DNA of 64,000 bases. It comes from Syncephalis fuscata. Taxonomy: Eukaryota > Zoopagomycota > Zoopagomycetes > Zoopagales > Piptocephalidaceae. The stretch lies in contig JAHLTZ010000009.1 in NCBI GenBank assembly GCA_025786725.1, forward strand, positions 434,001 through 498,000, read 5' to 3'. A model generated the notes under the pieces. That model ran no database searches. It saw only the letters and a program-made list of their open reading frames with translations, and was not told the origin of the DNA. Shown here piece after piece: positions 4,948 to 46,973 of the stretch. The translations under genes and the position numbers were made by a program. Positions within the stretch are counted from its first letter, which is position 1; every line of letters begins with the position of its first letter.

Positions 4948-7023
4948 TTAATCAACCACTACTAATTTCTCGTACTTCTTTATATCGATTGCGGCACGCA
5001 ATGTATTCCATGGTGACATATTTTCAATACGGTTTTCAAGGAATAGTTTAAGCATTTGACCGCTGAATCCAGATAACATACCAACGCCTTTTTGATTTAC
5101 GGTTACCGGCTTAGAGCCGCCATCTGCATCACGCCCCGAACCGCGTAGATTCCAGAATATCATCTCTGGCACTTCGTAACCAGCTTCTGTAAACTTGCGA
5201 ACAATAACTGCATAATCAGTATTGAACGCACTTAAACCACCTGTACAAGCTTGGTTAAATTCCATATCAGAGAAAACAAACAAACGTTTGACCATGTGTT
5301 CCGGCTCAAGATTCGATGCTTTAGCTTGTTGAAGAATAAGATCGAATACTGCTTGGAAATTAGTGCTAAATCCAAATCCCATAGTCGATACGTTCTTTAC
5401 TCGATCAACTAGTGTTTCACCAACAACATGGTGTATTTCTGGTTGTTCGCTGAACGTGATTAGCAGCTGGTTGAACGGTGGCTTAGTAAGCTCAGTGAGA
5501 AGTAGCGATAAGGCAATGGCGGCATTCATCGGAGTGCCGTTCATCGAACCAGATACGTCGCACACGGACATGGTCGCGTCAAATCCACCGACTTTGGCCA
5601 ACTTGTCAACGTAAGAACGCCATTGCGTTTCCAATACATCTATAGACTGATTGTCATCGGCCATCCACCGATGATTTCATTCATATAATGTTTATATGCT
5701 TCCTCTACAAGTTCATGCGGCATTAAAGCTCCGCTGGCAATCTTCTTTTCTCCTGTCTTCACTTGTCCCAAATAAGTACGAATCGTTCTTTGTCATGCTT
5801 AGTAAACTGGCCTTTTGCTTCTTCATGCACACCGATGGAACTCGCTCATAATTAATACTCGACCAATTATTTTGTGACATTAAAGTCTCAACTACAGGAA
5901 TTTTAGCACGTAGTGGCGTGAGATAGTCGCGTTGATACTGAATACGTATACGCATGACATAAGCAGTAAGTTCTTCGCCTTGCTTTCGGTGTTCAGCCTC
6001 TGGATAGAGCATTTGAGCAATAGTTGTTGCTAATAGCGTATAACTATCGTGGTGGGCACGTGGTGTGGGCGCCCATTTTGCAGCCAATGAGGTAGATTTG
6101 TTTTTCTTCAATAGCTCTAAATCATTGTATAATGCTGCGGCAAAATGTCGAGCTGTTTCCACATGAAGTTTTTGATAAGAAACGTCATTTTCAAATAAAT
6201 TTCGTACACGATCACGTTTTTCCTTTGTTCGTTCATTACGTTCTTTACGTGCAGTCTTGCTAAGATTAAGCATTTCTGCTTGATTATGTTCTGCGCGTTC
6301 TTTGCGATAACGTGCAATATTTTCTTCACTTGTGTCGGACGCCGCTTTACGGAATTCTTCTCGGCGATTCTTGCGAACCAAATTTCTAGTAGTCCATACT
6401 TCTTTAGTGTAGCGTCGACCACGAGCAGCCTCACGCTTTCTATACTCTTCCTCCAGTTTATTGACACCTTCTACATCGATTGTCTCCCAAAGAAGAAACT
6501 CTGCCAAATCTTTCCAGTAGCCCACTGCTGGAAGCGTAGGTAAATTGGCAAAAAACGTTTCAGGATGAAACTGCCGTAACCACTGTAGTGCATAATAAAA
6601 CTCTTTACGATCGCCCTTGCCATCACGTATATCACGTAGCTGGAATATTAGCTTAAGTGTATCGAGCGGATCTTCTTTCCAGGCCTTTTCCAAGCCAGTG
6701 CGAATATATTCACGACTAGTACCAGACATGGCATCAAAGAAGAAGTCAACTCGGGCAGAAGTTGTAGTGGCATAAGTTACACTGCTATTTTCGGTAAGTT
6801 TTAAGTTGCCTGTAGATGCAGCCAGCATAGCATCAACAAATGGGGAACTGGTGCTGGCAGTCTTGTCCGAGTCGGCAGTATCATTATTTTTTGGTTGATT
6901 CGGCTCGGCCGATATAAATTCAAATCCTTCTTCTACTTTGCCGACGCTCTTGGCTACATCCGCTGCTTGAGGCAATGGATTGGCAAAAGAAAGAGTATAA
7001 TCGCCAGAGATATAGTCAGCCAT
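4948..7023 (-). CDS. DUF2828 / TROVE-like plus von Willebrand A domain protein
   Basis: The N-terminal part (7023 down to about 5760) carries the alpha-helical DUF2828 signature: FFDAMSGTSREYIRTGLEKA, then DTLKLIFQLRDIRDGKGDR and GYWKDLAEFLLWE. A highly charged Arg/Lys/Glu insert follows. The C-terminal part (from 5664) is a VWA domain with the metal-binding DVSGSMNGTPM (MIDAS DxSxS) and a second acidic loop (FVFSDMEF). The two parts lie in different frames. Between 5800 and 5650 the expected continuation (KHDKERF, YLGQVKTGEKKIASGALMPHELV, MNEIIGGW) can be read only by changing frame twice, so two single bases appear to be missing. Proteins of this family are common in fungi and plants; a Ro60-like RNA-binding role is suggested by architecture only. 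Confidence 0.85.
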
Positions 7024-7621
7024 GGATAAGTCTCAGTTTCAATAGACAATAAACCAAATGACAAGCAAGAATAAAAGCAGGTAAAGAAGAGGTGGCGGTA
7101 CAGTTCAATGGCCCTTCCTGTTAGCGCTCTTTTATGACGATCTTGTGACTCAGTGTTATATTGTGCGTCATCATTCATTGAATACTATTTACGGCAATCC
7201 TTTGGAAAACTGGTCACAACACTTGGGCACAACACGTTTTACATTTTTATCGTAATAATATTGATATGCATGAGTAGATTAATCATGTAATAAAGTAATG
7301 TAGTTATTGTAGTGATGTTAAGCATATCAGCCATCTAGATCGACCAGATTTTAGTATTATATTGGCATAATTTAAAATAAAAGTCTGATGGTTACAACTT
7401 GAAAGGCATACGATATTACATTTTAGACTACGTAGATAGCATACGTTTAATAAAGCACTGGTCTTTCCGCTAGTTGTATTTTATTGGATTTAATCAAAAC
7501 ATATTAAATGGCTAATAAACTATTTGTATAAATAATTGTAGTATGTTAATACTTTTAAAAGAAAAAGTCATTTTCAGCTAATAAAATAGTTATAATAGCG
7601 ACATTTATTTAACATAATGAC
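7024..7621. other. Intergenic region
   Basis: This lies between the DUF2828 start and the 3' end of the next 7TM gene on the same strand. It is AT-rich and I recognised no gene in it. Confidence 0.5.
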
Positions 7622-8649
7622 TCATACCAACAAATGTTGATTCGAAAAATCAGAATGCATATGATGATCTATAGACTTTACAGTAGCAATTTGAGATAAA
7701 TGAAGCATATGCTCGGTTTTTGGTTGGTGTGCAGAACCAACACTTTTGCCTATATTTTGACAATGATGGACTAATATTGTTGTGACAACTACCCTGTGTG
7801 CCTATTAGTTTTATGTAAACAGTTATTTACCATTACTTACCAATCTAAGATAAAGAATTGATCAGAATAGGCTTTGCCTATAAACATGATTACGATAACT
7901 AAGCAAATGATGTTGCATAGTGTGGCCAAAAACATTGTTTGTATTCCATCGCGCGCAAGTTTCTTCCATGCATCCGATCCAAATAAACGATACTGTTTTA
8001 GAGCAACGTAGCAAAAGATGGATGAGAATAGCACATTGATCGGTGCATTGGCTAAAAACCAGTACCAGATAGTAGGCTGATGATAGTAATTTACGCAGCC
8101 CTCTTTTTCTTCTATAATAATATATCCACAATTAATTACAATGGGAGCATAGACGAGCTGTGGCAGTATAAATGGAATACTGATATAAAGTACCCATTTT
8201 TGCCGACAAAGCACCAGATAGGCCTTTTGAAGCAGTATTAAACTGTTGCCAATCATCGTAAATGACATACTGAATAGAATAATCCATATCATAATCCGGC
8301 AATTACCAAGGAGATTCATGAATATAAATATACTCGTCAAACTAGTTGTCATATTTAGAACAGAAGGGATTAGACAGCACCATGAGATTATCCTATAAGG
8401 TCGTGCTATGACCATTTTACTGGCAACAGCAAGATTGCGTCCAAATATAAAAGACGCTATAACAATCATTACAATTTGAGCTTGTGCACCAAGTAGTCGA
8501 AGGCGCTGTTTATAAATGTCGCCAGAAGCCTCCATAAAGAAATCAAATACGTGTATTTCGCCAAGTGGATGAAGCGGAATTCCCAATTGCTTCATGTTGC
8601 TGTTAATCCATTCAGCGTATTGGTGGCTATTATAATCAATGGCTGGCAT
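7622..8649 (-). CDS. 7TM receptor-like protein, intact reference copy (subtype II)
   Basis: This is the only copy of the family with an unbroken frame. Exon 1 is 7841-8649 and exon 2 is 7622-7793; the intron 7794-7840 splits a Trp codon (TG|G). The protein of about 325 residues begins MPAIDYNSHQYAEW, has the family-wide N-terminal block GIPLHPLGEI..FDFFMEASGDI, then seven hydrophobic segments. A Cys at the start of helix 3 (GNCRIMIW) and another in the loop before helix 5 (EGCVNYY) are conserved in all copies and sit like the class A GPCR disulfide. The loop before helix 6 has LFGSDAWKKLARDGIQ, and the tail ends with an HLSQIAT block. Topology and the Cys pair suggest a GPCR-like receptor. 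I do not recognise a named family, and G-protein coupling is inference. Confidence 0.85.
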
Positions 8650-9250
8650 GATGTATGAATAGTATAGATATTAAGAATACAATATACAATAATAAATCTG
8701 TTAGTATGTGTCGATAAAAACTGGTTAAATAATTGAAAGAGTGAATACAACTAAGAAGCACGTCTCGCTGCTATCAAGTTTTGGCTATAAGATGAACGGA
8801 CCAATGGCTTATGGTCATAACCTGTTATGCATCTCGAAATCGTGGCATATGCCATGATAATACCGAAGTAAATAGCTGTATGTATATACCATCTGTTCAC
8901 GCGCAGCATGACAGCAAAATAATCAACCACATGGTAATAAAAGCAAAGGCCTCAACTGATCACTGGATTTATACTAGATTGTACTGGCATCTCTAATCAT
9001 TGAGATTAATCAAATAAAACAATTAATTTTGATTAAACTAAAATTCAATTATGTATTTAAATAGCTATTGTGTGCTGTATGATTGCTGGTTGTATATTTA
9101 CTATAAAGACTACAAAAGGCTGCACACCTAATAGTATAATTCTTATTTTGTAATGTTCATTTTGTGTGATCCATCCGAAGCAAATAAAGAAATATATTGC
9201 AATAACAATACATGGCGTTTTTTGTAGTATTTCTAGTCACATTAGCACGA
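8650..9250 (-). repeat. Upstream module of the subtype II 7TM gene
   Basis: The stretch from about 8740 to 8970 is homologous, in inverted orientation on the plus strand, to 61350-61600 upstream of the other subtype II copy (61689). Shared landmarks include GGCTATAA.ATGAACGGACCAAT, AATAGCTGTATGTATAT and AAAGGCCTCAA. It probably holds the promoter. No gene is seen in it. Confidence 0.6.
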
Positions 9251-9735
9251 GACATATATGAGTGTTTAAGTATAGAAGTTGCCTATCGTTGATCAAGAAC
9301 TCAGGCGAGTATTCCAGTTGTCAGCCTAAAGTGGCTAAAATAGAATAACGCACGATATGTCTTGAACTGCATAGTCTAACCGGATATCCGCTGCTGCGTT
9401 GCTGTTGAATATAAAATATGCAAGAACTTGATGAATTCTTTTTACACATATTATATGTCAGCATCAATATTGTAGTGTTACTGCGGCACACGATCATCTT
9501 CAAGTTCAGTGATTTGCCAACCAGCTTTTTATTCAGCTTGTGACCATTGCATGCTCTGGATGATGTATGGTGCAGCAGCTGACACTGAGCATTCGCAAAA
9601 ATTATCATGCATGCAATACAGAAAACTGGTAATTGCCCTTGTTTAAATACTTCATTGCAAACTGTTTAAATTTATGCGCTTTACCTCTATTATCTAGCCA
9701 TTTATACACTATTACCGTTATTTTTATAGGTTAAA
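9251..9735 (+). promoter_or_regulatory. Upstream module of 7TM copy at 9736
   Basis: This is related to 2690-3131, 45480-45997 and inverted 60393-60850. Common landmarks are the GGCGAGTATTCCAGTTGTCAGCC-like block, the GCTGCTGCGTTGCTGTTGAATA block, and GCAGCAGCTGAC about 160 bases before the ATG. It is a candidate shared promoter. Confidence 0.55.
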
Positions 9736-10710
9736 ATGCCATTTATTAACTATACAGACCCAAAGCAAACTGAGTGGATACATAATGCTACAAAGCAGTG
9801 GAGCATACCGCTCAATCCACTTGGTGAAATGAGTGTGCCTGATTTTTTGATGGAAGCTTCAGGTCATATTGATGAACAACACCTTCGTTTAGCGGCCATA
9901 CAAGTTCAGCTTGTATTTTCCGTTATAATGCTTTATATCTTTGCACACAATAGCATTATAGCTACCAAAATGATTATATCAAGGCCACATAGCAAGTTTT
10001 CATGGTGCTGTTTAACACTTGCTGCTGCTGGTGCCATATCCAGTATAATGCACATATTTATGTTGACGAGCCATGTCATTAACTGTAGAATGCTGGTATG
10101 GTCGTCTGGATTTTTTATTTCATTAGGAATGATCTTCAATAGCGCGATTCTTCTTTTAAAGTTCATTTGGTTCTTTATCAAAAAAAGTGGATCACTTATA
10201 TTGGCATTCTTTTTATACTGCCGCAAGTAGGCTATGGTTTTATTTTAATATACTACTCTTTTTTACTTTGGAGATCAAACTCGGCTGCGCAATCTACTAT
10301 CCATCCATTCTGCTTTGGTACTGGATTGGCGTAAATACACCCATCAATATATTCTTTTCAGCCATCTTCTGCCGTATTGCTTTTAAGCAGTATCGCCTAT
10401 TTGGATCTGATGCATGGAAACGACTAGCACGAGATGGAATACAAACGATATGCCTGGCCTTATTAACCAATTTTGTTTGCTGCATAGCCATAGCTAGTCA
10501 TTACGGTGATACTAACCTTGATATACTTTTTCTTGCCGATTGGTAAGTACTGGTGCTTAATTGTATGTATATAGCTAATATATTTATAGGATGGTTGTTG
10601 GAACCATATTGATTAGACATTGTGAGAAGATGGGAAATAGAAATCACACTGGATATAGTCCTAAAACTAATCATATGGTCCACATGTCACAAATTGTTAC
10701 TGCAAGATAA
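9736..10710 (+). CDS. 7TM receptor-like protein, subtype I (two single-base breaks)
   Basis: It starts MPFINYTDPKQTEWIHNATKQW, with N-glycosylation sequons NYT and NAT in the putative extracellular N-terminus. All seven hydrophobic segments, the Cys pair (INCRMLVW; LGCAIYY), LFGSDAWKRLARDGIQ and the terminal intron 10543-10589 are present. The tail reads MVVGTILIRHCEKMG...HMSQIVTAR. Only two bases seem missing: one A in the AAA-GTTCAT run at about 10160 and one T in the T run at about 10260-10264. Both are in homopolymers, so the gene may be intact in the organism. Its upstream and downstream flanks are duplicated at other copies. Confidence 0.8.
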
Positions 10711-17977: not shown

Positions 17978-18569
17978 ATGAAGCTTTTTATTGCCGTCAT
18001 TTGCATCATTGGAACAACTTTTGTAGTCAGTACATCCATAGTGAATATTAAGCCCAATCGAGCCCGCGTAGTATATTGCGATTACAATAAACATTTAAAT
18101 TAGTATATTTACTAGCATTATATTTAATGAATAATGAAGTTATGGCTATGGATTGTTGTTCCAGCACTTAATGTATATTGTCATGCATACACGACTAGTT
18201 GGTAAATCTAATAAATTTATTGATGCATTAATTTCTGATTACGTGTTAAGGTGTAGTGCGTAAACCAGCGCCATTGACTAAAGTAGTTACATAAATAGTA
18301 AATCAAACACTTTATTAAGTAGATTAATATACTATATTTACATTGATAGGACATAAATAATATTGTATGTTAACCGAAAACTTAATTGTTACTTTTATTT
18401 AACATCAATAGTTGGTAAGTGGCATTCTATATTAACAAATTATTGAATAACATATATTATGCATCGTGTGTCTAATAATTCAACATCAATAGCCGGTAAG
18501 TAATATTTTATTGTGTTAATTTATACATTAATCATATGGTATGTAATATATAAATCTATAGGCAGCTAA
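17978..18569 (+). pseudogene. Small secreted peptide gene, shrunken copy of the microexon gene
   Basis: Exon 1 (ATG 17978) encodes MKLFIAVICIIGTTFVVSTS, a signal peptide matching the leader of the gene at 28613. The frame would run to a stop at 18103 if unspliced (41 residues). Downstream, the last two 3-nt microexons of the 28613 gene are kept: TTG at 18412-18414 and CCG at 18493-18495, each between CAATAG and GTAAGT. The final exon starts at 18562 and reads GCAGCTAA. The donor after exon 1 is weak (GTAGTA) and the other repeat units are gone or unrecognisable (one possible acceptor near 18350). It is probably a decayed or reduced paralogue, but a short functional peptide is not excluded. 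Confidence 0.55.
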
Positions 18570-18830
18570 TAGCCAATATCTTCAAGACATTAGCATTGGT
18601 AATGTAGTTGGAATGTTAGTCCAATACACTTTAGGTATATATCCGGTAACAATCAAGACCATTTGACAATTACATCGTTCAATCTACTCACCTATCAATT
18701 TCTAACCAATGCTCCGATCTATTATACATTTAATTAATAACGCCATTATACTATTAATAAGACTGCACTTAGCTGTATCTATTTAGCTATGCAAACTTCT
18801 AATAATAAATATATGGTTTTATTCTAATTA
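18390..18830 (+). repeat. Duplicated 3' block, copy A (matches 29630-30080)
   Basis: About 440 bases are nearly identical to 29630-30080. They span the last two microexon/intron units, the final coding exon and about 270 bases of 3' flank (AATATCTTCAAGACATTAGC ... ATATATCCGGTAACAATC). It shows a fairly recent duplication of the peptide gene. Confidence 0.9.
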
Positions 18831-28612: not shown

Positions 28613-29813
28613 ATGAAGTTTTCTATTGCCATCGTTTGCACTTTCATCGTAGCCTTTATGGCCAGTACAGCCATGGTGGATGCTATGCCAACTCTAGTTC
28701 GTCGTGGTATGTTACGGTTAAATAATTGTTTTTTAACTAAGCACTGCTTTTACTTGCCAAAATAATGTTAATAGAACGTAAGTTGCATTGTATATTAATC
28801 AATTATATACTAATCAAATACCATGTGCTGTGTGTTTAATGGTTTGGCATCAATAGCTGGTAAGTTACATCGTATATTAATTAGCTACAAATTAACATAT
28901 ACTATGCGCTGTGTATTTAATGATTTAACAGCAATAGATGGTAAGTTACATCGTATAGCAATTAACTATGCATTGACATGTGCCATGCACTGTGTTTAAT
29001 GGTTTGACATCAATAGTTAGTAAGTGACATTATAGGCTAGTTATTTATACGCTAACACATGTTATGTATTTTGTACTTAATAATCTGGCATCAATAGCTG
29101 GTAAGTTACATTGTATAGCAATTACTACGCACTAACATATGATATTCACTGCATGCTTAATGATTGGCATCAATAGCTGGTAAGTACATCGTATATCAAT
29201 CAGCTACGCACTAACCTATACCATGTACTGTTGTTCAATAATTTGACATTGATAGATGGTAAGTTACATTGTATATTAATTACTACGCATTAACATATCC
29301 TATGCAATGTGTATCTAATAATTTGACATAATAGCCGGTAAGCTACACTGTACAGCAATTAACTAATGTTAACATATGATATGCAATGCTTGTTTAATAA
29401 TTGGACATCAATAGAAGGTAGGTGACATGTATATTAATTAGCCATGTATTAACATATATTATGTAATGTGCGTTTAATGGTTTGACATTAATAGTTAGTA
29501 AGTGACATTGTATATCAATTACTACGCACTAACATATGATATGTACTGTCTGTTTAATGACTTGACATTAATAGGTCGTAAGTGATATTGTATCTCAACT
29601 AACTATGAATTAACTTATGCAATACAATGTGTATTTAATGATTTAACATCAATAGTTGGTAAGTGGCATTATATATTAACAAATTATTGAATAACATATA
29701 TTATGCATTGTGTGTCTAATAATTCAACATCAATAGCGGGTAAGTAATATTTTATCGCGTTAATTTATACATTAATCATATGGTATGTAATGTATGTATT
29801 TATAGGCAGCTAA
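28613..29813 (+). CDS. Secreted Kex2-type peptide precursor assembled from 13 three-base microexons
   Basis: Exon 1 (28613-28706) encodes a signal peptide and pro-region ending in Kex2-type Arg-Arg (MKFSIAIVCTFIVAFMASTA..VDAMPTLVRR), in phase 1. After it come 13 positions where a 3' splice site (A/GATAG) is followed three bases later by a 5' splice site (GTAAGT or a close variant). The triplets are AAC 28775, CTG 28857, ATG 28938, TTA 29017, CTG 29098, CTG 29177, ATG 29256, CCG 29335, AAG 29415, TTA 29495, GTC 29575, TTG 29656 and CGG 29737. The last exon begins at 29806 and reaches the stop TAA at 29811. Joined, the open frame gives 46 residues with tail EPDVTADAEVSLAGS and no internal stop. 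The intervening introns are 76-79 nt (first 68, last 66). The leader is homologous to that at 42300. Splicing is inferred from the sequence. Skipping any microexon keeps the frame. Confidence 0.7.
28707..29805 (+). repeat. Tandem array of intron-like units, about 80 bp period
   Basis: It consists of 12 consecutive related units plus diverged first and last introns. A typical unit is GTAAGTTACATYGTATAT, then CACTAACATATGATATG (branch-site-like ACTAAC), then TGTTTAATGATTTGACATCA and ATAG, followed by 3 nt. Every unit keeps the donor, a candidate branch site and the acceptor. The period varies by only one to three bases, always leaving exactly 3 nt between acceptor and donor. Confidence 0.9.
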
Positions 29814-30080
29814 CACCAATATCTTCAAGACATTAGCATTGGCAATGTAGTTGGAATGTTAGTCCAATACACTTAGGTATATATCCGGTAACAATCAAGA
29901 CCATTTGACAATTACATCGTTATCTACTCACCTATCAATTTCTAACCAATGCTCCGATCTATTCTACATTTAATTAATAACGCCATTATACTATTAATAA
30001 GCCTGCACTTAGTTGTATCTATTTAGCCATGCAAACTTTAATAATAAATACATGGTTTTATTCTAATTAGTTTCATCAAA
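29630..30080 (+). repeat. Duplicated 3' block, copy B (matches 18390-18830)
   Basis: Nearly identical to 18390-18830. It covers the last two microexon units, the terminal exon and 3' flank. Beyond about 30080 the two loci diverge. Confidence 0.9.
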
Positions 30081-42105: not shown

Positions 42106-42300
42106 TTATGCAGGGCATTTCTTTTGGTTAGTGCATTGATTGAGACAAACAACAGCATTTTTCTTAGTAGCAGTGCATGCATCAATGCAGTCAGTGCATC
42201 TATCACCACGACGAACTAAAGCTGGATTAGCATCCACCATAGCTGTAGCGGCTATCAAAGCCACAACGACGGTGCAAACGACGGCAATGGAAAGCTTCAT
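42106..42300 (-). CDS. Small secreted cysteine-rich peptide with Kex2-type pro-sequence
   Basis: The intron-less 64-residue precursor starts MKLSIAVVCTVVVALIAATA, with likely cleavage after ..MVDA. Next come a short pro-segment NPALVRR and the mature peptide GDRCTDCIDACTATKKNAVV..., about 33 residues with six cysteines (spacing C-x2-C-x3-C-x9-C-x3-C-x5-C), so three disulfides are likely. The leader is about 70% identical to that of the microexon gene at 28613, but the mature part is unrelated. The ATG at 42300 is preferred because the signal peptide starts there; an in-frame ATG lies 24 bases upstream. No named family was recognised; an antimicrobial, effector or signalling role would be a guess. 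Confidence 0.8.
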   Translation of the reverse strand: MKLSIAVVCTVVVALIAATAMVDANPALVRRGDRCTDCIDACTATKKNAVVCLNQCTNQKKCPA

Positions 42301-45319: not shown

Positions 45320-45997
45320 TAGCATTGCTTTATATTAATACTGTAGAATAGAAATTAGAATATGCACAATAGTATAGTACTTGTTTACAACAGTATTTAT
45401 TTAATTTAATTCTGATAATCTACCTAAGCAACTGTACTGCAATAGCAATACGTAATTCTGTCTGTAGGTTTTCAAGACAAGTCAATTCCAGACATACATG
45501 GTGTCAACATAAAAATCACCTATCACTGACCAAGAGCTCAGGCGAGCTATGCTAGTTACCCACCTAAAATTACTAAAAACGGCACAATGCATGACATGGC
45601 ATGAGCTGCATAATCTGAACGGATATTCGCTGCTGTACTGTTGTTGAATAAAAGATTTTACAAGAACTTAATGAGTTTATTTTTTATCTATTATTCGTCA
45701 GCATTAATGTCATAATGTTGCTGTGGCACAGTATTATCCCAAGTTTAATATTTTACTTATTATTTGGTTCAACTTGTAATTGTTGTTAGCTTGGATGTTG
45801 TGTAGTGCAGCAGTTGATGTTGCGTACATAATTGACTGAATATTCATGTACCGCATCAGTTAATATGCATGAGGAACAAAAACTGGTAATGCCCTTTGCT
45901 CCAAATATTTTATTGTGATACACTCAAATTTATGCTATTGTACTTTTATTATTTTATCATTTACGCACTACTATTTTCACAATATACAAAACCAAAA
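45320..45997 (+). promoter_or_regulatory. Upstream module of 7TM copy at 45998
   Basis: 45320-45650 is almost identical, in inverted orientation, to 60690-61045 upstream of the 7TM copy at 60392. The proximal 150 bases resemble the flank of the copy at 3132. It is a shared promoter-region candidate for subtype I genes. Confidence 0.6.
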
Positions 45998-46973
45998 ATG
46001 CCGTTTATTAATTATACCGACCCAAAGCAAACCGAATGGAAACATGGTGCTACAAAGCAATGGGGCATACTGCTCAATCCACTTGGCGAAATGAGTGTAT
46101 CTGATTTTTTGATGGAGGCTTCAGGTCATATCTACGAGCAGCGTCTTCGTTTATCGGGCGTGCAACTTCAAATTGTAGTTTCTATTATAACATTTTGTAT
46201 TTTTACACACAATATTCTTGTAACTACCAAAATGACCATATTACGCTCAAATAGCATGTTTTCATGGTGCTGTTTACTACTCGCTATTAATGGCAGTACA
46301 TATAGTATAATGTTTACATCCATGCTAATGGGCTATGGCCTTAATTGTAGAATGCTGGTATGGTCAGCCGGGTTTTTTACTTCATTAGGAATGTTTTTCA
46401 ATAGCCTAACTCTTCTTTAAAAGTCCGTTTGGTTCTCTATCAAAAAAAGTGGATCACTTATGTTGGCATTCTTTTTATATTACCACACCTAGGCTATGCT
46501 TTTATCATGATATACAACTCTTTTTTTACTTTAGAGCCTCTACTCGGCTGCGCCATCTACTATCCACCTATTTTTCTTTGGTACTGGATTGGTGTAAATA
46601 CACCTATCAATGTGTTCTTTTCAACCATATTCTGCCGTATTGCTTTAAAGCAGTATCGTTTGTTTGGATCTGATGCGTGGAGGCGACTAGCACGGGATGG
46701 GATACAGACAGTATGTCTGGCATTATTAACCAATATTATTTGTTGCACCCTTATAATTAGTCGTTTCGACGATGCTAATAGCGATATGCTTTTTTCCATC
46801 GACTGGTAAGCATTGATAATTAATTGCATGTATATATCTAATATATTTTTAGGATGATTGTTGCAACCATATTGATTAGACATTGTGAGAAGATGGGAAA
46901 TAACAATCAATCTGCGTATCGTCCCAAGACTTATAATATACTGCATCTATCTCAAATTGTCACTGCAACCTAA
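45998..46973 (+). CDS. 7TM receptor-like protein, subtype I (one single-base break)
   Basis: Starts MPFINYTDPKQTEWKHGATKQW. The full family architecture is present: Cys pair (LNCRMLVW; LGCAIYY), KQYRLFGSDAWRRLARDGIQ, terminal intron 46806-46852 splitting the Trp codon, then MIVATILIRHCEKMG and HLSQIVTAT. The only visible defect is one missing T near 46418, where CTTCTTTAAAAG should read with an extra T; this makes a false stop in helix 3/4. With that base the protein is about 325 residues and complete, so a functional gene is likely. The 3' half and about 750 bases downstream are nearly identical to the copy at 3132. Confidence 0.8.

Follow-up and report, generated by a model that had tools for sequence, protein, structure and literature searches.

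Comparison with described gene architectures

The micro-exon genes (MEGs) known from schistosomes and tapeworms are reported to contain exons down to 3 bp and introns of up to 5 kbp (PMC10526429). The rule given for recognizing them is at least 7 exons, at least half of them microexons (<70 nucleotides (nt), divisible by 3), with a run of at least 4, and the same source stresses single-residue variants arising through exon skipping (PMC7653826). Aphid bicycle genes have many small exons, the internal ones starting at codon position 2 (PMC9168663). At the ratchet points of Drosophila recursive splicing, an acceptor and a donor are juxtaposed and one splice sets up the next (PMC8605326), and in Arabidopsis a 1-nt exon of APC11 is spliced accurately, with sequential intron-defined removal as the proposed route (PMC4674806). 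Introner-like elements of fungi are invasive, multiplying introns (PMC4457414). Here we describe a gene at positions 28,613 to 29,813 of a 64,000-nt stretch of the genome of the Zoopagales fungus Syncephalis fuscata (contig JAHLTZ010000009.1, positions 434,001 to 498,000; hereafter the window), whose genus is called "ubiquitous mycoparasites" by the title of a reference in PMC10386755. This gene very probably belongs to a very large secreted-peptide family whose mature peptides are spread over exons of one codon each.

The S. fuscata family resembles MEGs in its predicted secreted products and its consecutive runs of microexons divisible by three; on predicted exons, all 48 array genes for which a model was obtained have the exon number, microexon share and run length of the structural definition given in PMC7653826. 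Unlike MEGs, nearly all of its internal exons measure exactly one codon, its introns are ~78 nt long, alike and in tandem, it belongs to a fungus, and its selection signature favors constant inclusion, a lag test speaking against selected skipping. No sequence relation to MEGs was found by profile search, remote descent being possible for proteins this short and divergent. The arrays would represent, judging by their predicted exons, an extreme form within the structural micro-exon genes. With bicycle genes they have in common a large, fast-evolving, effector-like family and internal exons starting at codon position 2 (the length of exon 1 modulo 3 is 1 in 48/48 models, and 1,320 of the 1,340 internal exons measure 3 or 6 nt), whereas the CYC motif is present in 0 of 48 products, the exons are 3 nt long and the organisms are unrelated. 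The sequence geometry, AG-N3-GT with ~78-nt steps, is like that of ratchet points, but each step in S. fuscata would leave one codon behind, up to 48 times. The APC11 exon is isolated in an ordinary gene, whereas the S. fuscata exons form an array; the one-codon ratchet proposed below extends the APC11 intron-definition reasoning to tens of units. Introner-like elements are dispersed among different genes, whereas the S. fuscata introns lie in tandem inside one family (97 clustered places among the first 100 of the 3,183 with the 3-nt spacing, N3). A first-pass annotation of the window had called a run of only 3-nt exons undescribed to its knowledge, and searches of an open-licence library gave, among the papers listed, neither 3-nt exon arrays nor microexons in Syncephalis. 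If transcripts confirm the arrays, this would be the most extreme exon fragmentation known to us.

Structure of the window gene

The first-pass annotation had proposed an exon 1 ending in Arg-Arg in phase 1, followed by 13 acceptor-donor pairs enclosing three bases each, which join into one open frame. The DNA bears this out: the coordinates and the CGT CGT G end of exon 1 agree, each of the 13 triplets lies at its proposed place between ATAG and GTA, and the joined frame gives EPDVTADAEVSLAGS and then a stop. The observation was correct and, as the genome-wide results below demonstrate, understated. The predicted features of the gene are as follows.

28613..28706, plus strand: exon 1 (94 nt), signal peptide and short pro-region MKFSIAIVCTFIVAFMASTAMVDAMPTLVRR, phase-1 end CGT CGT G, donor GTATGT
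28707..28774, plus strand: intron 1 (68 nt), donor GTATGT, acceptor AATAG
28775..28777, plus strand: microexon 1, AAC
28857..28859, plus strand: microexon 2, CTG
28938..28940, plus strand: microexon 3, ATG
29017..29019, plus strand: microexon 4, TTA
29098..29100, plus strand: microexon 5, CTG
29177..29179, plus strand: microexon 6, CTG
29256..29258, plus strand: microexon 7, ATG
29335..29337, plus strand: microexon 8, CCG
29415..29417, plus strand: microexon 9, AAG
29495..29497, plus strand: microexon 10, TTA
29575..29577, plus strand: microexon 11, GTC
29656..29658, plus strand: microexon 12, TTG
29737..29739, plus strand: microexon 13, CGG
28778..29745, plus strand: tandem repeat array of ~81-nt units (intron plus 3-nt exon), 12.1 copies, 73% match, score 756
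29806..29871, plus strand: start of terminal exon (GC AGC TAA; TTTATAG acceptor; stop TAA at 29811-29813) and 3' untranslated region (3'UTR) up to the conserved motif
29872..29888, plus strand: family 3'UTR motif, TTTAGGTATATATTCGG with 2 mismatches
30043..30048, plus strand: AATAAA, possible poly(A) signal

Introns 1-13 measure 68-79 nt and the last one 66 or 70 nt, depending on the acceptor. The tandem repeat, which the first-pass annotation had not noted, is made of units that each consist of an intron with a GTAAGT-like donor and an AATAG-like acceptor, and then the triplet. ATAG before and GTA after the triplet are identical across 13/13 units; pairwise identity in the triplet columns is 0.24, 0.47 and 0.49, and a few intron columns are equally variable (0.33, 0.44 and 0.49). 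The window contains 13 copies of ATAGNNNGTAAGT, 11 of which lie inside the array, against 0.27 expected from shuffles. A second terminal acceptor, GCAG, would start the terminal exon at 29810 and give a longer tail, and it was picked by the last splice models. With the acceptor leading to 29806, the stop lies 61 nt ahead of the 3'UTR motif; the corresponding distance is 57-69 nt in 18 of 23 intronless loci with the motif.

Family size and genome-wide pattern

Searches of the S. fuscata genome (28.95 Mb, 299 contigs) place exon 1 in a family numbering about 300 loci. At the DNA level, exon 1 as query yielded 232 candidates (40 of them were scored, at 82-100% identity), a protein search 325 candidates (150 of them scored), and a 23-base exon-1 pattern with at most 3 mismatches matched 309 places versus 3 for its reversed control. 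At least 7 AG-NNN-GT sites were present 3' of exon 1 in 37 of the 48 first-examined loci, some of which overlap; ten of the remaining 11 were read through, and most of these run straight into a short open reading frame (ORF), often cysteine-rich.

The strict form AATAG-N3-GTAAGT was found 3,183 times genome-wide versus 28 in the reversed control, which amounts to about 3,100 candidate 3-nt exons. AATAG-N4-GTAAGT gave 54 places versus 50, and TATTAG-N6-GTAAGT 84 versus 12. Since N3 and N6 exceed their controls and N4 does not, unit spacing among the three lengths searched is 3, sometimes 6. Of the first 100 of the 3,183 N3 places, 97 lie in clusters. Across 750 units, the three triplet positions carry 0.09, 0.20 and 0.02 bits of information and the unanchored columns of the intron between 0.19 and about 1.8 bits, the lowest of these being about equal to the highest triplet position.

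Gene structures were predicted with a dynamic-programming splice model that admitted exons of 1-20 nt without preference, accepted GT and GC donors, and placed the terminal acceptor 40-85 nt before the conserved 3'UTR motif. The 81 modelled loci were taken from rank-ordered hits and according to ORF length, and proportions among them estimate nothing: 48 gave array models, 27 were classed as intronless (two of which, L057 and L072, look misclassified, their ORF reading into an intron-like GML/SML start), and 6 had no model (L011, L027, L034, L066, L068 and L073). The array models contain 7-48 units per gene (median 29.5). Their internal exons measure 3 nt in 1,268 and 6 nt in 52 of 1,340 cases, with a longest run of exact 3-nt exons of 22 in the median and 38 at the maximum (L075). 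The 1,388 modelled introns have a median length of 78 nt (93.5% between 70 and 85 nt) and 1,362 GT and 26 GC donors. In the terminal exon, a stop within 18 nt was present in the incoming phase 1 in 44/48 genes, versus 3/48 and 8/48 in the other phases.

A ~415-nt homologous insert was observed in intron 6 of L089, in intron 2 of L014 and altogether in 16 of the 20 array-gene introns that are long (400-900 nt), with empty sites in the near-identical L041 (G000:C249:42121) and L035. It has a ~15-16-nt target duplication, a T-rich end and, on the opposite strand, sequences resembling the A- and B-boxes of tRNA genes. The insert is probably a short interspersed nuclear element that has landed repeatedly in array introns.

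Selection on the joined reading frame

The joined phase-1 reading is under selection, and full consecutive inclusion of the units is what is preserved. With pattern matching only, 32 genes had phase-1 stops at 2 of 621 junctions versus 27.8 expected with triplets shuffled within genes, and these two are one junction shared by a near-identical gene pair. In the other split frame, 42 stops compare with 43.9 expected. The 48 models gave 3 phase-1 stops at 1,264 junctions versus 71.9 ± 6.4 expected (0 of 5,000 shuffles as low) and 95 versus 99.4 in the other split frame. In the non-redundant set of 37 genes, obtained by removing 11 near-identical ones from the 48, these values were 2 of 1,026 versus 63.9, and 79 versus 81.9. 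The third frame, the triplet itself, is outside the reach of the shuffling test. TAG, TAA and CAG are absent among the triplets (6.6, 7.4 and 9.2 expected), which competing splice sites could explain, and TGA was found 4 times versus 6.3 expected.

A lag test on the 37 genes compared consecutive junctions (lag 1) with those that skipping would create. At lag 1, stops were found at 2 of 982 junctions versus 64.0 expected from shuffled units. At skip junctions, there were 70/908 versus 58.9 at lag 2, 62/841 versus 54.7 at lag 3 and 48/778 versus 50.8 at lag 4. Lags 5-8 gave 36, 36, 40 and 27 stops versus 46.9, 43.2, 39.9 and 36.7 expected; lags 5 and 8 are about 1.9 standard deviations under expectation, at most a slight deficit, unlike lag 1. 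Cysteine codons were doubled at lag 1 (173 versus 87.2), under expectation at lags 2 and 3 (62 versus 80.8 and 60 versus 74.6) and slightly over it at lags 4 and 5 (77 versus 69.8 and 78 versus 64.4). Because stops are depleted at lag 1 and unavoided when one or two units are skipped, full consecutive inclusion is the selected product.

The proposal of the first-pass annotation that the triplets act as coding microexons of 3 nt, joined in phase 1, is supported by this phase- and order-specific stop depletion, and further by the terminal stop phase (44/48) and by the composition match and common cysteine framework described next.

Joined peptides and intronless paralogs

The joined phase-1 peptides of the array genes contain 16.9% cysteine, and their amino-acid composition correlates with that of 23 intronless mature parts at r = 0.84, the remaining two frames giving 0.21 and -0.02. 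A CxxCxxxC..C framework is present in 14 of the 37 non-redundant array genes versus 0.19 in shuffles (maximum 2), and also in 12 of the 27 loci classed as intronless; spliced L020 (G000:C24:655246, minus strand; SRDPAKCEECRKRCPKVYGTLFCVGLCSKYCAP) and intronless L030 (ADLESPECEECLNICFSQLNSSLHCYSSCRPKCAP) form an example pair. For a profile comparison, sets were drawn by rule (at least 6 cysteines, no frame problem), giving 11 spliced and 17 intronless mature parts; these matched with an E-value of 1.1e-4 and a probability of 57%, versus E-values of 0.13-0.84 in residue-shuffled controls (n = 10). This comparison replaced one with 8 hand-picked spliced peptides (91%, E-value 1e-6), in which two rows were faulty, L017 having been composed from two model versions and L023 carrying one wrong residue. 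The mature part has no cysteine in the window gene, in L037/L053 and in L009/L010.

Upstream homology to an array gene extends over ~300 nt at 80-90% identity in five of the seven intronless paralogs examined and over 107-110 nt at 77 and 90% identity in the other two, and all seven have a 3' flank in common with array genes (198-501 nt at 71-95%). The idea that they are simple retrocopies was rejected on these common upstream and 3' flanks; because the flanks are common, in-place intron loss mediated by complementary DNA (cDNA), or ancestral intronless genes, fits better. L027, L042, L055 and L067 form an intronless subfamily with the same signal segment and a different conserved mature part (RGPIPPFGACKCRDDDGYCTSC).

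A profile search of about 5.8 billion proteins, with short and divergent queries, recovered 15 family proteins, all from S. fuscata; proteins of S. plumigaleata and S. pseudoplumigaleata are in that database, and array genes there would be unannotated. Pfam gave one sub-threshold match for P0125 and none for P0121, and PDB sequences gave only two matches (E-values of 0.49 and 1). A search of the genome for uninterrupted copies of two spliced mature peptides returned none, an outcome that carries no weight with the tool used.

Evolution of the arrays

A near-identical copy of the window gene, L002, has 8 units and lacks one block of exactly five, which by triplet order are units 6-10 of the window gene. 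Identical units recur at offsets 2-19 inside some genes, a pattern that points to block duplication. As seen in this one near-identical pair and in the repeated identical units, arrays change by whole units, so that entire residues are added to or removed from the peptide and the frame stays intact.

Divergence was compared in the 30 most similar pairs among 35 clean models, of which 24 had at least 8 alignable codons. Exon divergence exceeded intron divergence in 19 of these 24 pairs; mispaired units may inflate the exon value, unit orthology being uncertain in distant pairs. In L085/L086, exon divergence was 0.356 versus 0.103 for introns, and of the differing codons 18 are nonsynonymous and 2 synonymous. 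As a history of the family, we favor tandem growth of units with later cDNA-mediated loss in some loci.

Proposed mechanism and significance

In the proposed architecture, exon 1 would encode a signal peptide and a short pro-region whose Arg-Arg end is a probable Kex2-type cleavage site. It would be followed by 7-48 repeats of a ~78-nt phase-1 intron and a 3-nt (sometimes 6-nt) exon, and by a terminal exon carrying the stop. Since adjacent introns are only 3 nt apart, side-by-side spliceosome assembly is hardly possible, and ordered 5'-to-3' intron-defined splicing appears the likely mode. Removal of an intron would leave a donor 3 nt past the new junction, so that each step would add one codon in a manner resembling recursive splicing. 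Change by whole units may let effector-like peptides, often with six cysteines, diversify rapidly against host fungi.

On balance, with a good deal of reserve, we prefer a reading in which codon and exon coincide. Peptides of ~10-46 residues would be assembled via up to ~48 ratchet-like splicings, and the ~80-nt unit would act as a recombination module, unequal exchange between similar introns inserting, deleting and shuffling single residues without frameshift in ~300 effector-like genes. If true, the arrays would offer a system for how the spliceosome handles dozens of adjacent 3-nt exons and a route by which a fast-changing family acquires residue-level insertions and deletions and keeps its frame. 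Public annotation would then misread part of the secretome, in S. fuscata at least. A scarcity of stops specific to phase and order, as used here, could serve to detect genes of this type elsewhere.

Alternative explanations

Several points weigh against the one-codon architecture. The array exons are predictions from DNA, and the splice-site weights were trained on 3-nt-spaced units and may favor 3 nt, so tests independent of the splice model were also relied on. An exon that is not a multiple of three is present in 13/48 models, the ORF reaches the terminal exon in 45/48 and stops earlier in 3/48, and the stop lies 45-70 nt before the 3'UTR motif in only 33/48; these frame-breaking exons, early stops and off-distance stops are model errors or pseudogenes. 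A loose branch-point motif was present in 1,327 of 1,340 cases, a count made without control. When three NCBI models were aligned to the DNA, two joined exon 1 to other sequence, skipping the arrays, and NCBI model P0124 has two 3-nt exons, CCA and AAG, and then reads into an intron. In the divergence test, to the possible mispairing of units are added 5 of the 24 pairs, all near-identical, in which exons differ less than introns.

The strongest competitor, which we regard as a real if clearly less probable possibility, holds the arrays to be selfish or neutral. On this view, introner-like introns either spread or underwent tandem amplification and are tolerated by splicing; the peptide matters, but its codon-wise split has no function. 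The likeness of the unit introns and the recurrence of identical units within some genes fit this explanation, as do the intronless paralogs, whose same framework, promoter and 3' flank indicate that the split is unnecessary for such a peptide. It accounts less readily for units that are in phase with strong splice sites, gene after gene, and for N3 places that, to judge by the 97 of the first 100, are clustered and not spread singly through ordinary genes.

It is unlikely, the family itself being real, that the window gene is a decaying, unexpressed copy. Its mere 13 units, its cysteine-free mature part, the near-identical 8-unit copy and the decayed relative nearby at 17978 are all in keeping with decay and detract from the gene as a representative of the architecture. 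However, exon 1 is intact, AG and GT are present at 13/13 units, the frame is open in both copies, and the cysteine-free L037/L053 and L009/L010 show that such members exist elsewhere.

Variable inclusion, in which the arrays exist for the sake of many isoforms per locus through unit skipping, is improbable, and as the selected mode it was rejected by the lag test. The first-pass annotation had noted that skipping any unit preserves the frame and that one locus could in principle make thousands of peptide variants. The first part stands, units of 3 and 6 nt being skippable without frameshift; the second does not hold as the biological point, since stops are unavoided at skip junctions, where lags 2 and 3 are at or over expectation and also poorer in cysteines. 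The slight stop deficit at lags 5 and 8 leans the other way, as does the window gene, in which skips create no stop because none of its triplets ends in T, which is not a family rule. Some unit skipping may occur, though selection preserves the fully inclusive product.

That the whole array is a single long intron or intronic minisatellite with AG-NNN-GT pairs as decoys or remnants is barely credible, even though repeat units would carry splice-like motifs by descent and most of the NCBI models examined bypass the arrays: it was rejected on a stop depletion that is ~30-fold and specific to phase 1 and consecutive order (the other split frame shows none, and lags 2-8 nothing comparable), and it is further opposed by the cysteine framework that the joined peptides have in common with intronless paralogs, by the abundance of N3 but not N4 spacing, and by the triplet being the least informative part of an otherwise conserved unit (one intron column, at 0.19 bits, is equally low).

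Other features of the window

Two further family members and one other gene were located in the window.

17978..18629, plus strand: third member of the family, apparently decayed, its array consisting of two units (18412 TTG, 18493 CCG)
42106..42300, minus strand: intronless paralog with the same signal/pro segment, then a contiguous six-cysteine peptide GDRCTDCIDACTATKKNAVVCLNQCTNQKKCPA, ~12 kb from the window gene
5713-7032, minus strand: DUF2828 protein gene, product 100% identical to an S. fuscata protein over 90% of the query

The window gene and the decayed member at 17978 have the GCAGCTAA end in common, and their 3' ends are closely similar. A scan of the window with Rfam and for tRNA gave no match, and a spliced alignment of P0001 onto the window gave no solution. 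Three related membrane-protein-like ORFs, at 7837-8670 (minus strand), 9730-10230 (plus strand) and 45890-46420 (plus strand), have PLGE and MEASG motifs in common and are perhaps a lineage-specific receptor-like family.
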